From Crambe crambe (lineage: Eukaryota > Porifera > Demospongiae > Poecilosclerida > Crambeidae), in assembly GCA_963924555.1 (NCBI GenBank), contig OZ004586.1, forward strand, positions 6,406,501 to 6,470,500: 64,000 nt of DNA. The letters are read 5' to 3'. The notes beneath the pieces are model-generated. The model made no database searches. It worked only from the letters and a program-made list of their open reading frames with translations, and was not told the DNA's origin. Position 1 is the first letter of the stretch. Each line of letters opens with the position of its first letter. The position numbers and the translations under genes were made by a program. This document shows positions 47,934 to 54,034 of this stretch, in pieces.

Positions 47934-48265
47934 CACAACGGTTGTCAAGAAAATGCTCGATTATCAGCTGCCACGTGATTTCCGCTAATTTATCTGTTGC
48001 ATGTGACAGTGACTGGAATTTTGCAATCAAGGCTGATTCGATTGCAGTACGCATGTCGCAAGTCACTTGTCACAAAAATTCACATGAACCAATCAGCTTT
48101 GAGACCGGGATCACGTGTACCGCCCGGCTTAGAGCAAGTGCGATCGATCAATCTACAGCGGATTTCAAAGTTCTTGCAATTTCCTCCTAGAAGCGGATAT
48201 GAAATTTATCACGTGACTGCGATTGCCACGTACGTACGTACGTACGTGTACATGTAAAAAAAAAA

Positions 48266-49290
48266 ATGAAGTCAAATCATCAGCCTACCGCTAATCTCCT
48301 TCAACAGCAGTTGCTGCAGCGAATTTTGGGTCTTCAACCAACTGTTGAATCTCTTGTTAATATTGGAGGATCTACAGTAGTAACTGGCTCTGGCCCATCT
48401 CAGAATGCTAGAGTAAGCGTAACAGGCGCTCAAGGTCAAGGTCCACCACTCCATCCTCAGGCTCAGCCCAAGAATACCTACAGTTAAAATAATTAACCCA
48501 ACAAAGAAAAGTGATGTTACTGTTCGTCATTTAAACGATTTTAGTTCAAAATTCGAATCGGTACTATCGTTGAGGGTGAAATTTATAGAAGCTTTTAAAG
48601 ATAGTGTTCCCAATACTATTGATTTTATATAGTGTAGGATATTTTGAGGGGAGTCAACAAGCTAAGGTATGGTTAGTTGGGACTGAAAACCTTAAAATCA
48701 TGTATCAGAAATACCCTAGTGGTGGCTCAATCACTCTGTGGTGTGATGCCCGTTGTGAAGAAAATACGAGTGAAGGTGGCTGCAAAAGAAAGAGGGATAT
48801 CGATGCACCCAAAAAACAATCTAATACCATTGAAGAAAATGAATGTGAAGTAGATCGTGTGTACAAGAAGTTACTGGATAAGCATGATTCTAAGTGGGAC
48901 ACACCTAGACTTCGACTATGGGCACAGTGCATTGTTACAGAAATGCATGAGAGTTATGTAGACCCTCCTGATCTACCTGCCTTTAAAGCTCCAGAACCTA
49001 AGAGACGCAAGGAGTCTTTAACTGAGGCTCTCTCAGGTGCTGCTGTTGCTTTTGCAGGAGTTATTAGCAAACAACAGGCTCCTCCCGTTCAGGAAGGTGA
49101 ACATTCAGGCACACCTCGATCCTGTTCTGGGCAAGGAGTGTCATCCCCCAGGAAAATTGTTGAACTAAGATTGAAGAACTATGAGCAGTTGCGCTATGTC
49201 CAACAACTTTATAATGATGGAATTTTAAATGAGAAGGAGTTTAATGAACAAAAAAGCAAAATATTAGATTTTATTCATAAGATAATATAA
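48266..49290 (+). CDS. Accessory protein of the Tc1-like element, SHOCT-like C-terminus
   Basis: First piece 48266-48484 (Gln-rich, LLQQQLLQRILGLQPTVESL), a continuing open stretch around 48480-48630 (TVKIINPTKKSDVTVRHLND), and the main piece to 49290: a compact domain with GYFEGSQQAKVWLVG and ITLWCDA, a basic hinge (KRKRD), RLRLWAQCIV, and a C-terminal SHOCT-like helix pair (YVQQLYNDGILNEKEFNEQK). Two frame changes (near 48480 and 48630) mean it is either spliced or slightly decayed. A similar protein lies next door at 50.5-51.5 kb, with an intron. Known for SHOCT: a short oligomerisation or binding module. Role in transposition: unknown; regulation or DNA targeting is a guess. Confidence 0.7.
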
Positions 49291-50304
49291 CTCACATATA
49301 TATTTCACTATCCCATTACAATCTTCCTCTGTTACTGATGTGAAGCTAGCTAATAGCAAGGTTTCGAGATCAAACCTCTGTGTGCATTGTGTCTCCTGTT
49401 GTAGCTCTAAAGATTTGAGTTCGGTTTTCACTTTCGAAAAAAGTTCCTCTATCGGGTTCAAATCAGGGGAATAGGGGGGAAGAAAGTACACTAATGCTCC
49501 TACTTCCTCAATTGATTTAACAATTGCATTGACATGGTGTATCGCACAGTTATCAAGCACCACCACTGAATGTGGATTGGTGCCATTGTATAGCATTAAC
49601 TTTGGTAATAGGTGAGTCTGTACAAAGCCATAGAAAACTTCGCCATCTACTGTTCCTGCATGGGTTTTTACATCCAAAAGCCCAGCAGTGGACATGCATG
49701 CAATAGCAGATATATGTTTTCCCCTTGACAGGAATGAGAATCTTTTGGGAGGCTTGCCACGTATACTATAGCCATACTTCCATAGTGTATTTCTTCTATC
49801 TGCTCCTGTCTCATCAACAAAAGCAAACATTTCGGGAGAATGAACTGAAACATTGAAGCTGAATTGTAGCCTCAGTGATTTATCTAGCTGTGAAGCCACT
49901 GTTTGAAGTCTTTGGCGGGTGAAGCCACTTGCATGCAGAAATTTGCATAGGGTAGACATGCTAACCTCCAATAGAAGTGAGTGCTGCAGCTCTTCCTGAA
50001 TTTCATGCAAATAGATTCCTGGTTTTTGGAGAACAAGGTTAAGCACAAATTGCTGGGCTAAACTAGTAAGTTTTCTTGAGGCTCTCTCTTTAGGATAGGG
50101 TTTCTTTAGTAGGCTGCCAGTGTTATTGAAGAGATGAACAGTTCTCAGAATGGTGGACTTGTCTACTCCAAGATTATTGGCTATTGTATCATAAGTAAGT
50201 CCAAGTGCTTTTCTTTGCCAAATCATTCTCCATCTTAAATCCACATTATATGCACTGGATCTCCAAGGCTCGCATGAAGTTTTCATTGCAAACTTACTTT
50301 TCAA
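49264..50304 (-). CDS. Tc1/mariner-like DD34E transposase
   Basis: 346 residues, intact. N-terminal paired helix-turn-helix: LTYDTIANNLGVDKSTILRT and a second helix set (KPGIYLHEIQEEL ... STLCKFLHASGFTRQR). Catalytic core: FAFVDETGAD (first Asp), VVVLDNCAIHH (second Asp), LPPYSPDLNPIEELFSKVK (Glu, 34 residues after the second Asp). It should bind the inverted ends and insert at TA. The start chosen is the ATG at 50304; the 3' end overlaps the convergent accessory gene. It may also move the 176-bp MITE at 14941-15116, whose ends are similar. Confidence 0.94.
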   Translation of the reverse strand: MKSKFAMKTSCEPWRSSAYNVDLRWRMIWQRKALGLTYDTIANNLGVDKSTILRTVHLFNNTGSLLKKPYPKERASRKLTSLAQQFVLNLVLQKPGIYLHEIQEELQHSLLLEVSMSTLCKFLHASGFTRQRLQTVASQLDKSLRLQFSFNVSVHSPEMFAFVDETGADRRNTLWKYGYSIRGKPPKRFSFLSRGKHISAIACMSTAGLLDVKTHAGTVDGEVFYGFVQTHLLPKLMLYNGTNPHSVVVLDNCAIHHVNAIVKSIEEVGALVYFLPPYSPDLNPIEELFSKVKTELKSLELQQETQCTQRFDLETLLLASFTSVTEEDCNGIVKYICELYYLMNKI

Positions 50305-50489
50305 GCTACAAGATTTGAATGTCCCGCGCTGTGCGCGACCTATCGTCTATCGATTAAGACACGTGCCAATCACATGCGCCGAATTACCGGTACGCATTTC
50401 CTGTTGCAAGATCGTTGAAATCCGCTGTATATAGAATTTTTAGATCTACTGTAGTAGTACTAACGCTATAAATCGGTCTTCGATAACAA

Positions 50490-51528
50490 CCACAACAAGT
50501 GGAAGAAACATTAGACAACCAAGTGTGTTAGCATCGAGTATCCCTAGTAATTTACAGCCTATTATCACAGCACTTCAAACTTTAACAAGGAATCAGACTG
50601 CACAAGCTGTAAAATCCTTCAATATTAATGTTAAACTTATCAACCCAGATAAGAAGAGTATAGTTAGCTAAGACCTATGTCCTGCGTGAGGTTGGGTGCC
50701 TTTAATATTTCCACTCCTTTGCAGCTAAAGGAGCATATCTTCAAACAATTTGGAGACCAGTTAGTATCATCTAGACTTGATTTTCCTGTTGGATATATAA
50801 AAGCAGGTTCAAAGGTATGGATTCAAACAGATGCCGATATTAAAGATGTGTGGTCATTTATTAGTAAAGGTGATACTATATCATTCTGGTGTCATGGAAT
50901 AAATATAAGTGAAGATGTTGATGATAATGAAGAATTTCCTACAAGGAAGCCTAAGCGTAAAAAGAGAAGGAAGACAACCTATATGGAAGGAAAAAATGAA
51001 CGAGTTGATGGTCTTGTTAGTCAATTACGGGGAAAACATGGTGAACTCTATAATGGTGTGCAATATCGTCTTTGGGCAGAGATGCTGGATGTGGGTACAT
51101 ATAAGTAAGTTTAAAAGTGATTATATTTTGGATTTTTAACTCTGGTGTGCTTTATTTGGAAGCATTGATAATAGGTCAATTGAAGAGCCACCAAGAGTAC
51201 CTATATTCACAGGTGGCCGTGAAAAGAAACCAAATCAAGTCCAGGCCTTAACTTCAGCTGTGACAGAAATGGCAAAAGCCATGTCTACTTCTCGTGGTAG
51301 TTCTACTGAGCATGCAGATGTAAGACCGGTGGTGCAAACTCCTGTTGGAATCTCACCTGGAAAGATAGCTAACTTGCGATCAAACTATCTACAGCAACTG
51401 AGAGATCTCCATTCCTTGCTGGAAAGTGGTGCAATTAATGATAAGGAGTTTCAGGAACAAAAAATGCCAATAGGCAACTTTAGTCCAAGCTACAAGGAAT
51501 CAGAGAGTGCGGTAGCACTCTCTAAGTA
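50490..51528 (+). pseudogene. Intron-bearing relative of the SHOCT-tailed accessory protein
   Basis: Same layout as 48266-49290: N-terminal LQPIITALQTLTRNQT and KLINPDKKS near 50540-50665, then from 50677 GYIKAGSKVWIQTDADIKD and ISFWCHG, a basic hinge (RKPKRKKRRK), YRLWAEML, and, after a 70-bp intron (51105-51174, GTAAGT...ATAATAG), SPGKIANL and a SHOCT-like end (DLHSLLESGAINDKEFQEQK). The transposon copy has no intron at that place. The frame breaks near 50665, and the last residues (SESAVALSK) come from a hairpin repeat that has joined the 3' end. Probably decaying. No inverted ends flank it. Confidence 0.65.
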
Positions 51529-51534
51529 GGGATG
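51502..51534 (+). repeat. Hairpin + GTAGGGATG box, copy 2
   Basis: Stem AGAGAGTGC, loop GGTA, stem GCACTCTCT at 51502-51523; box GTAGGGATGGC from 51526. Sits at the 3' end of the SHOCT-relative gene. Confidence 0.85.
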
Positions 51535-51966
51535 GCAGGTCAAAGTCCATAGGACAGTATAAACTAAAAACTCTTCTTTCTCTTCTACCCTTACTCTACA
51601 GGTTCTCAGAAGGCTACAGTGAATTATTATATCTACAAAGAAGAGAGGAGAATGTTCAAAAGCCAAAAATTCATTCGCCAACATAAGAAAAAAACGAGTT
51701 CTAAAATTGACTTTTCGTTCTTTTTCTTTATAATCAGAGAGTGCGGTAGCACTCTCTAAGTAGGGATGGCAGGTCAAAGTCCATAGGACAGTATAAACTA
51801 AAAACTCTTCTTTCTCTTCTACCCTTACTCTACAGGTTCTCAGAAGGCTACAGTGAATTATTATATCTACAAAGAAGAGAGGAGAATGTTCAAAAGCCAA
51901 AAATTCATTCGCCAACATAAGAAAAAAACGAGTTCTAAAATTGACTTTTCGTTCTTTTTCTTTATC
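51502..51966 (+). repeat. Two tandem 234-bp units, each led by the hairpin
   Basis: Units start at the hairpins 51502 and 51736 and are nearly identical (shared CAAAGTCCATAGGACAG, AAGAGAGGAGAATG, CAAAAGCCAAAAATTCATTC). Not coding. Confidence 0.9.
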
Positions 51967-52445
51967 AGAGAGTGCGGTAGCACTCTCTATGTAGGGATGA
52001 CTCGGACGGCCGCGCGCGCCGCCTATAGACTAATACAAAAGTGAAATTCCAGTTCCCCCACTTAGACCTAACAAAAGCTACTGTGAATGATTATCCAGCC
52101 TACTAGAGCCTACTACAATGTGCAGACCAAGTTTCAGGACCAGGGAGCTTACCGTTTCAGAAATACGGCAAGCAGGTAAATCGCTATATTCTTCTTCTTC
52201 TCTATCAGAGAGTGCGGTAGCACTCTCTATGTAGGGATGACTCGGACGGCCGCGCGCGCCGCCTATAGACTAATACTAAAGTGAAATTCTAGTTCTCCCA
52301 CTTAGACCTAACAAAAGCTACTGTGAATGATTATCCAGCCTACTAGAGCCTACTACAATGTGCAGACCAAGTTTCAGGATCAGGGAGCTTACCGTTTCAG
52401 AAATACGGCAAGCAGGTAAATCGCTATATTCTTCTTCTTCTCTAT
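51967..52445 (+). repeat. Two tandem 240-bp units, each led by the hairpin
   Basis: Hairpins at 51967 and 52207, followed by GTAGGGATGACTCGGACGGC, then a very CG-rich GCGCGCGCCGCC patch that stands out in this AT-rich sequence. Units differ at a handful of bases. Confidence 0.9.
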
Positions 52446-52970
52446 TATTATTATTATTATTATTCTTCTTCTTATTATTATTCTTCTTAGACAACCATAT
52501 CTTTCGAACCACTCAAGCTACAGCTATGATTTCTGGACAAATCCACTCCAAATTCTACGAACTACGATCTTTTCTACTCGTTGATCCTCGAAAGAGTCGA
52601 TGAAAAAGGAGACACTAAGGAGCACAGCACTCGACTAATTCAATTAGGAAGCCATCTTTTCTATAATACGCATGCGCATGTATTTGATATCCAATTATTC
52701 GAAATTATAATATTACTCAGCTGCCTCTAGCTAGCTAGCTAGTCCTAGGTATAGGTATATGTAGCTAGAATAATGATAGACTACTGTATCGACTCGGGGA
52801 TTTAGATTCAACAAGGTAGACTCTATTTCAGCATCTTCTACCTCCACCTTGACTCGTTGGGCTGGTATGCTATTGGAGAACTATTCTTCTTTCATCTGTC
52901 CCTGCATACATATAGAAGAATGAACTCTATACATAGCTAAAACCATAAAAGAGAGGAAAAAAGACCAGGA

Positions 52971-53261
52971 ACAAGTAAGGGAAAAAGCATTTCGTGAAAT
53001 GAAAAAAGATGTAGGGATGACCACTGCTCAAAAAAGTAAGGAAACAAGAAGGATGGAATCTTTGTTCTGTATATCCAGCCAACAATCCCTACATATACGT
53101 ACATTACTACACTATAATCTGAAGCTACCCGACGTATATGTAGGGATTGTTGGCTGGATATACAGAACAAAGATTCCATCCTTCTTGTTTCCTTACTTTT
53201 TTGAGCAGTGGTCATCCCTACATCTTTTTTCATTTCACGAAATGCTTTTTCCCTTACTTGT
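52971..53261. repeat. Foldback element, ACAAGTAAGGGAAAAA ends (array unit 1)
   Basis: Arms of about 125 bp. Each arm: end, hairpin CATTTC-GT-GAAATG, box GATGTAGGGATGACC (53011), payload, inverted inner box CAATCCCTAC (53083). Centre about 40 bp. Confidence 0.88.
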
Positions 53262-54034
53262 TATCAGAGAGTGCGGTAGCACTCTCTATGTAGGGATGAC
53301 TCGGACGGCCGCGCGCGCCGCCTATAGACTAATACAAAAGTGAAATTCCAGTTCCCCCACTTAGACCTAACAAAAGCTACTGTGAATGATTATCCAGCCT
53401 ACTAGAGCCTACTACAATGTGCAGACCAAGTTTCAGGACCAGGGAGCTTACCGTTTCAGAAATACGGCAAGCAGGTAAATCGCTATATTCTTCTTCTTCT
53501 CTATTATTATTATTATTATTCTTCTTCTTATTATTCTTCTTAGACAACCATATCTCTCGAACCACTCAAGCTACAGCTATGATTTCTGGACAAATCCACT
53601 CCAAATTCTACGAACTACGATCTTTTCTACTCGTTGATCCTCGAAAGAGTCGATGAAAAAGGAGACACTAAGGAGCACAGCACTCGACTAATTCAATTAG
53701 GAAGCCATCTTTTCTATAATACGCATGCGCATGTATTTGATATCCAATTATTCGAAATTATAATATTATTCAGCTGCCTCTAGCTAGCTAGCTAGCTAGC
53801 TAGGTATAGGTGAATAGTGATGATGATGATAGACTACTGTATCGACTCGGGGATTTAGATTCAACAAGGTAGACTCTATTTCAGCATTTTCTACCTCCAC
53901 CTTGACTCGTTGATAGTGATTGGGCTGGTATGCTATTGGAGAACTATTCTTCTTTCATCTGTCCCTGCATACACATAGAAGAATGAACTCTATACATAGC
54001 TAAAACCATAAAAGAGAGGAAAAAAAGACCAGGA

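Follow-up and report, generated by a model that had tools for sequence, protein, structure and literature searches.

Tc1/mariner transposases are the textbook example of one-protein machines and form the base of gene-delivery tools. As a rule, or at least usually, the elements that encode them carry a single transposase open reading frame (ORF), according to excerpts of three sources (PMC8533490; PMC10379824; PMC7325037). Ciliates harbor elements with further genes: in one Paramecium survey, an ORF2 of unknown function was present in 13 of 13 elements, and the Tec and TBE elements carry extra ORFs, with three in Tec, one of which lies in the complement (excerpts of PMC5405496; PMC3464196; PMC7325037). 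Two-gene DNA transposons are also described in PIF/Harbinger, where excision requires the ORF1 protein, as does nuclear localization of the transposase (excerpts of PMC2836001), and where this protein binds the element ends (excerpts of PMC2836001; PMC9179366). In fish, both genes of PIF/Harbinger persist and evolve in step (excerpts of PMC9179366; PMC2836001).

The window analyzed here is a stretch of 64,000 nucleotides from the sponge Crambe crambe (contig OZ004586.1, positions 6,406,501 to 6,470,500 of the forward strand). It contains a Tc1/mariner-type element in which the transposase gene is faced by a second gene on the other strand, referred to below as the accessory gene.

Anatomy of the window element

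The element occupies positions 48156–50427 (2272 bp, no strand assigned), and a sister copy on contig C12 is 97% identical to it over element positions 80–2272. TA target duplications lie on either side, at 48154–48155 and 50428–50429 (no strand), and the terminal inverted repeats at 48156–48179 (forward strand) and 50404–50427 (reverse strand) are each 24 nt long, with two mismatches over the 24 nt. TA-flanked ends thus enclose both genes, as the earlier note had described. A TA target duplication with terminal inverted repeats, a criterion of the IS630-Tc1-mariner superfamily, is found in the window element and its relatives; the group departs from the single transposase ORF of the superfamily, a feature that is usual but not strictly defining.

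The transposase is encoded on the reverse strand at 49264–50304 as an open frame of 346 aa, which as listed begins at a TTG codon, with the first in-frame ATG six codons later. It matches DDE_3 at 89.3 bits (cut-off 28.6; E 2.8e-25) and HTH_23 above the cut-off. The spacing between the second aspartate and the glutamate of the catalytic triad is 34, which makes this an IS630/Tc1-type DD34E enzyme; a DDE_3-type transposase with a catalytic triad is a further criterion of the superfamily. Using the NCBIfam IS630 model, the transposase of the window group scores 128 bits (cut-off 100), but this model does not separate the group because two accessory-less Tc1-type transposases from the same genome are also above the cut-off (105.5 and 115.5 bits). 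In a maximum-likelihood tree, 24 group transposases fall on one side of a branch with support of 91/91, a value below the starred level of the tool. Bacterial IS630 sequences stand next to the group in this tree, a nearness that is partly by choice, because the bacterial rows were picked as high matches and this favors closeness to the group. The two accessory-less Tc1-type rows are far off on a long branch, in a set of rows without reference sequences of Tc1, mariner or pogo.

The accessory gene lies on the forward strand at 48266–49290. In the C12 sister it is an open frame of 397 aa, and compared with that copy the window gene is short of 8 nt following position 48482 and carries 4 additional nt near 48627, which puts its 5′ half out of frame. 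The frame that remains open (48604–49290, forward strand, 228 aa) is the 3′ part of the longer gene; the gene itself does not begin at 48604, as the sister copy reads through the same region. The frame disruption probably leaves the window copy unable to make the accessory protein. A 71-nt intron within the 5′ portion of the window gene was also considered and was dropped because the C12 copy is open there.

Internal sequence of this subfamily, at an identity of at least 85%, is found at four places in the genome (the window, C12, C3 and C5), and both genes are present at all four, so that every other copy of the same subfamily with internal sequence carries the second gene as well. Three further places found by DNA search hold only about 90–115 bp of one subfamily end (two left ends and one right end); no right end of the window subfamily was found in the stretches read at the two left-end-only places. 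We regard this anatomy of the window element, a mobile unit with two genes, as very likely correct.

The surroundings of the element contain other repeats. Just beyond its right end, at 50600–51472 (forward strand), lie the remains of a further accessory gene, a diverged member of the family, with no transposase found beside it in 50428–53500. An inverted repeat at 52970–53262 has perfect 131-nt arms separated by 31 nt, and five copies of the palindromic 22-nt unit AGAGAGTGCGGTAGCACTCTCT are present (51502, 51736, 51967, 52207 and 53266).

The two genes are paired, move together and are inherited together

The genome searched comprises 143.1 Mb in 119 contigs, and its Wnt genes, with 14 of 14 matches above the cut-off, mark it as that of an animal. 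At least 142 matches were obtained with the accessory query and at least 126 with the transposase query. Only the best candidates were scored (accessory, best 150 of 170; transposase, best 117 of 337; DDE_3, best 150 of 278), and thus the numbers of clusters, defined as matches merged at 600 bp, are lower bounds. Two further accessory queries were added before the final count, and from these, new or longer matches were selected. The earlier note had held that the two-gene element would fall if most full-length copies lacked the second gene. The opposite is seen: the subfamily has it at 4/4 places, and in the wider group 89 of the 112 transposase clusters among the matches listed have a convergent accessory within 2 kb, with six same-strand cases and 17 without any. 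For the first accessory query alone, at 3 kb, the counts among the matches listed were 79/112 convergent, 5 same strand, 28 none and 0 divergent, against a chance expectation for a convergent accessory of about 0.6% per transposase cluster in that count. The convergent share among the listed matches falls with the transposase score band, from 15/15 at 300 bits or more to 39/48, 15/21 and 20/28. Three of the 17 transposase clusters with no accessory listed were read directly with a profile, and convergent accessory remnants were present in all three, one of them weak (E 1.7e-4).

Viewed from the accessory side, the 150 clusters among the matches listed divide, by the transposase or DDE_3 match found within 2 kb, into 97 convergent, 9 same-strand and 1 divergent case, with 43 lacking any such match. 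Four of these 43 loci were read: convergent transposase remnants were found at three (L023, L024 and L028), and no transposase was found in the stretch read at the fourth (L035). Clusters with DDE_3 only, judged as such by absence from the transposase matches listed, served as a control. Among these 42, an accessory within 2 kb is absent from 32, convergent at 8 and on the same strand at 2, and the ten with an accessory may be fragments of group members. At four accessory-less Tc1-type control loci from two families, no accessory was found by profile within the 1.5–1.7 kb fetched. The convergent order is not absolute, since the two genes share a strand in head-to-tail order at C6:1727 (L080) and at C16:6167984–6169924, the latter taken from the match table. 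The stretch of contig C11 from 1.6 to 3.9 Mb contains over 20 transposase relics of the group at intervals of tens of kb. Almost all of them are on the minus strand, which looks like the outcome of tandem duplication of the region.

Inverted, TA-flanked ends with a score of at least 13 surround both genes at 18 of 37 two-gene loci, several of these 18 being near-copies of each other, compared with 1 of 37 in a reversed, non-complemented control; the remaining 19 loci showed no such ends. Many of the 18 share the end pattern CAG..G.TTTgCA......TTGCAA, and two (C10:4575004 and C3:6304385) depart from it and could be repeats of another kind. The copies on C8, C19 and C10 are 98.7–99.4% identical exactly from end to end (2533–2544 bp) with TA on both sides, and their 150-bp flanks have no match between them. 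Because three copies about 99% alike from end to end sit in unrelated flanks, the accessory gene and the transposase gene moved together. The copies on C16 and C17, alike at 98.7%, behave in the same way, and those on C12 and C15 share 99.6% identity over 2311 bp.

Over longer times, the two genes have also diverged together. From 61 accessory and 63 transposase frames, 21 pairs were formed with at least 200 transposase and at least 170 accessory residues matched, and the protein distances of the two genes correlate with a Mantel r of 0.905 (0 of 5000 permutations). Restricting the set to 14 non-redundant pairs, with transposases more than 15% different, gives a coefficient of 0.72 (again 0 of 5000 permutations). 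For deep pairs, dS has reached saturation, and dN is 0.24–0.36 for the accessory gene (three pairs) and 0.23–0.31 for the transposase gene (two pairs). In close pairs, where changes are few, the values are mixed: dN/dS of the accessory gene is 0.26–0.64 in six of seven pairs, the seventh standing at 3.24 with 11 changes, and that of the transposase gene is 0.49–1.13 (four pairs). The 27-bp overlap of the two frames that had been noted earlier is present in the window at 49264–49290 but is not conserved in relatives: frames overlap in two of the 21 pairs (window and C21) and not in the other 19, which rules out a conserved 3′ overlap of the two genes. Leaving stop codons out, the gap between the two frames is anywhere from -52 to +342 bp among the 21 pairs; in the C12 copy it is +8. 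The data show that members of the lineage share an end pattern enclosing both genes, that relatives have recently moved with both genes, and that the pair has long been co-inherited.

The accessory protein

An alignment of 14 members defines a first conserved domain, 'YKVKIINP..KKSD...R.L...F..KF.S...L.....EEF.D.VP...F.VGY.EG.....K.WL....DL..MY.......ITLWCDG', followed in order by a basic linker, the block 'RLWARMI..G.HDS...PP..P' and a SHOCT-like tail; the open frames upstream of the first domain vary widely among members. Judged by eye against the features of PB1, strands and helices in the first domain follow the order seen in ubiquitin-like or PB1 domains. In the window this possible domain lies at 48480–48756 (forward strand), read with one frame step. 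Pfam PB1 (PF00564) matched 0 of 14 members at E of 1 or less. In a single comparison by hhalign with three host PB1 sequences, the domain obtained a probability of 13%, an E value of 0.0021 and a score of 21.0, the best of 20 column shuffles reaching 15.6. A model of the region (pLDDT 43.7) was too weak for a meaningful Foldseek search, which gave no match at E of 0.001 or less. A PB1-like head is thus a possible lead with weak support. The host genome itself has a cluster of seven PB1-domain matches at C12, 4.25–5.93 Mb, which look like host genes.

The basic linker contains in the window the cluster KRKRD, which resembles a nuclear localization signal (NLS), at 48784–48798 (forward strand, position computed from the offset). 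Such a cluster occurs in 19 of 21 accessory proteins, compared with 5.2 expected from shuffles, and in 2 of 21 transposases, compared with 2.8 expected. The idea that group transposases miss an NLS present in other Tc1 transposases was not supported, since the basic cluster is found in 0 of 4 transposases at the accessory-less Tc1-type control loci (two families, one locus being a fragment); because these controls lack the cluster too, its absence from the group transposases is no sign of dependence on a partner. The conserved block around RLWA...PP..PAF, at 48850–48995 (forward strand, limits set by eye), has no Pfam match.

The SHOCT-like C-terminus named in the earlier note stands in a loose sense, with SHOCT (PF09851) matched at E of 1 or less by 11 of 14 members; the window protein scores 20 bits against the curated cut-off of 27. 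In a recheck of 10 members, five matched at E of 0.01 or less and one passed the cut-off (27.1 bits). In the window, the tail is a predicted helical hairpin at 49201–49266 (forward strand), placed by the SHOCT match and a structure model; residues 231–260 of the modeled stretch have a pLDDT of 80–91, and the rest of this single-sequence model is poor. Three of three accessory proteins match phrog_2700, a PHROGs family of unknown function, at the C-terminal end (best E 5.1e-6), which is taken for the SHOCT-like tail. Sequence search of the PDB gave no match to the accessory protein, and its profile gave weak, unconvincing matches there (best E 0.029). No accessory match was found in the plasmid collection, no confirmed relative of the accessory protein or of the transposase in viral contigs, and no confirmed accessory relative in the prokaryote genome collection by peptide-pattern search. 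Dozens of natural variants of this uncharacterized protein family are present in the one genome.

Role of the second gene and comparison with described elements

The element lineage is a cut-and-paste DNA transposon of the IS630/Tc1 type, with a DD34E transposase and a TA target, in which two genes are the normal and probably the ancestral state. The best explanation overall, to which we assign a probability of about one-half, is a two-gene lineage whose accessory protein acts as a transposition cofactor. The cofactor role itself, proposed by analogy with PIF/Harbinger, falls slightly short of even odds in our judgment. The accessory protein would enter the nucleus via its basic cluster, would oligomerize through the SHOCT-like tail and perhaps through the PB1-like head too, and would bind the transposase or the element ends; it may help the transposase to reach or pair the ends, like ORF1 of PIF/Harbinger. 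Because the group transposase has its own HTH domain, it should need no help in end binding, and this speaks against a plain copy of the Harbinger scheme. A more specific proposal is less likely than not in our judgment, namely that this is an undescribed animal IS630-like lineage that moves by the joint action of a DD34E transposase and an indispensable nuclear cofactor. This cofactor would assemble with itself, would have a PB1-like head and a SHOCT-like tail, and would have been kept for most of the history of the lineage. To our knowledge, a cofactor with such a head and tail is known from no other transposon group.

The same features of the protein could serve other ends. A nuclear-type basic cluster and an oligomerization-type tail would equally suit a chromatin or transcription factor, and convergent genes with near-abutting ends could yield antisense RNA; the accessory protein may work against the host, through anti-silencing or transcriptional control, or limit copy number, outside the transposition reaction. 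Nothing ties the protein to silencing, and Pfam finds in it no known chromatin, methyltransferase or DNA-binding domain, and we consider such a role less likely than not. The second gene might also do nothing for the element, as a host gene captured once and carried as a passenger, which would fit the 43 listed accessory clusters with no transposase within 2 kb and locus L035. The transposase remnants at the three other loci read argue against this, as do accessory frames that are open with amino acids conserved over deep divergence and the correlated distances of the two genes; among the four of 43 accessory-only loci read, no host gene outside elements was identified. We therefore judge a passenger highly improbable. 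As to a chance insertion, which the earlier note had itself raised, or an annotation artifact confined to the window copy, the out-of-frame 5′ half of the window gene is in its favor, but it is refuted by the genome-wide pairing and by the joint movement of the C8, C19 and C10 copies, and the open frames of relatives also count against it; we give it a negligible probability.

The cofactor reading thus remains the one we prefer. The genome contains a large, old family of the Tc1/mariner type whose members usually have a second conserved gene opposite the transposase, and this pairing suggests that their movement may depend on the partner protein. A two-gene lineage raises the question of why a partner protein has been kept while relatives manage without one.

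No described Tc1/mariner group with this gene was known to the earlier note. This holds insofar as no animal Tc1/mariner element with this gene was found among the papers listed in the literature search, although a database-only description, for instance in Repbase, may exist because the eukaryote sequence searched was that of this one genome; it is qualified by the extra genes known in ciliates (excerpts of PMC5405496; PMC3464196; PMC7325037). No literature linking SHOCT with a transposase and Tc1 was found. The animal Tc1/mariner families (Tc1, mariner, Sailor, Mosquito and others) share with the window group a DDE transposase, short inverted ends and, in most, a TA duplication, and the DD34E triad of the group is as in Tc1; they differ in that a single transposase ORF is usual in them, according to excerpts of the sources (PMC8533490; PMC10379824; PMC7325037), whereas the window group has two genes. 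Bacterial IS630 transposases are 26–33% identical to the group transposase over 75–94% of length in the 8 records listed of 908 plasmid records with a match, but no accessory match was found in plasmids or, by peptide patterns, in prokaryote genomes.

Among animal DNA transposons, KolobokP likewise combines a transposase with a second gene, but it belongs to the Kolobok superfamily, its second gene encodes a His-Me finger nuclease, and its architecture is composite-like (excerpts of PMC9587614). PIF/Harbinger is alike in being a two-gene DNA transposon whose second protein positions the transposase (excerpts of PMC9179366; PMC2836001). Its transposase is of another superfamily and its second protein is Myb-like; moreover, the Harbinger transposase has no obvious DNA-binding domain, whereas the window-group transposase has an HTH. 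The ciliate IS630-Tc1-mariner elements (Anchois, Tennessee, Sardine and Thon of Paramecium; Tec and TBE) share both an IS630/Tc1-type DDE transposase and further ORFs with the window group, and, as given in the source excerpts, are set apart by their ciliate hosts, by up to four ORFs, by a tyrosine recombinase in some and by long palindromic ends in some. The sponge lineage stands as a parallel to these ciliate elements with their shared ORF2 of no known function.
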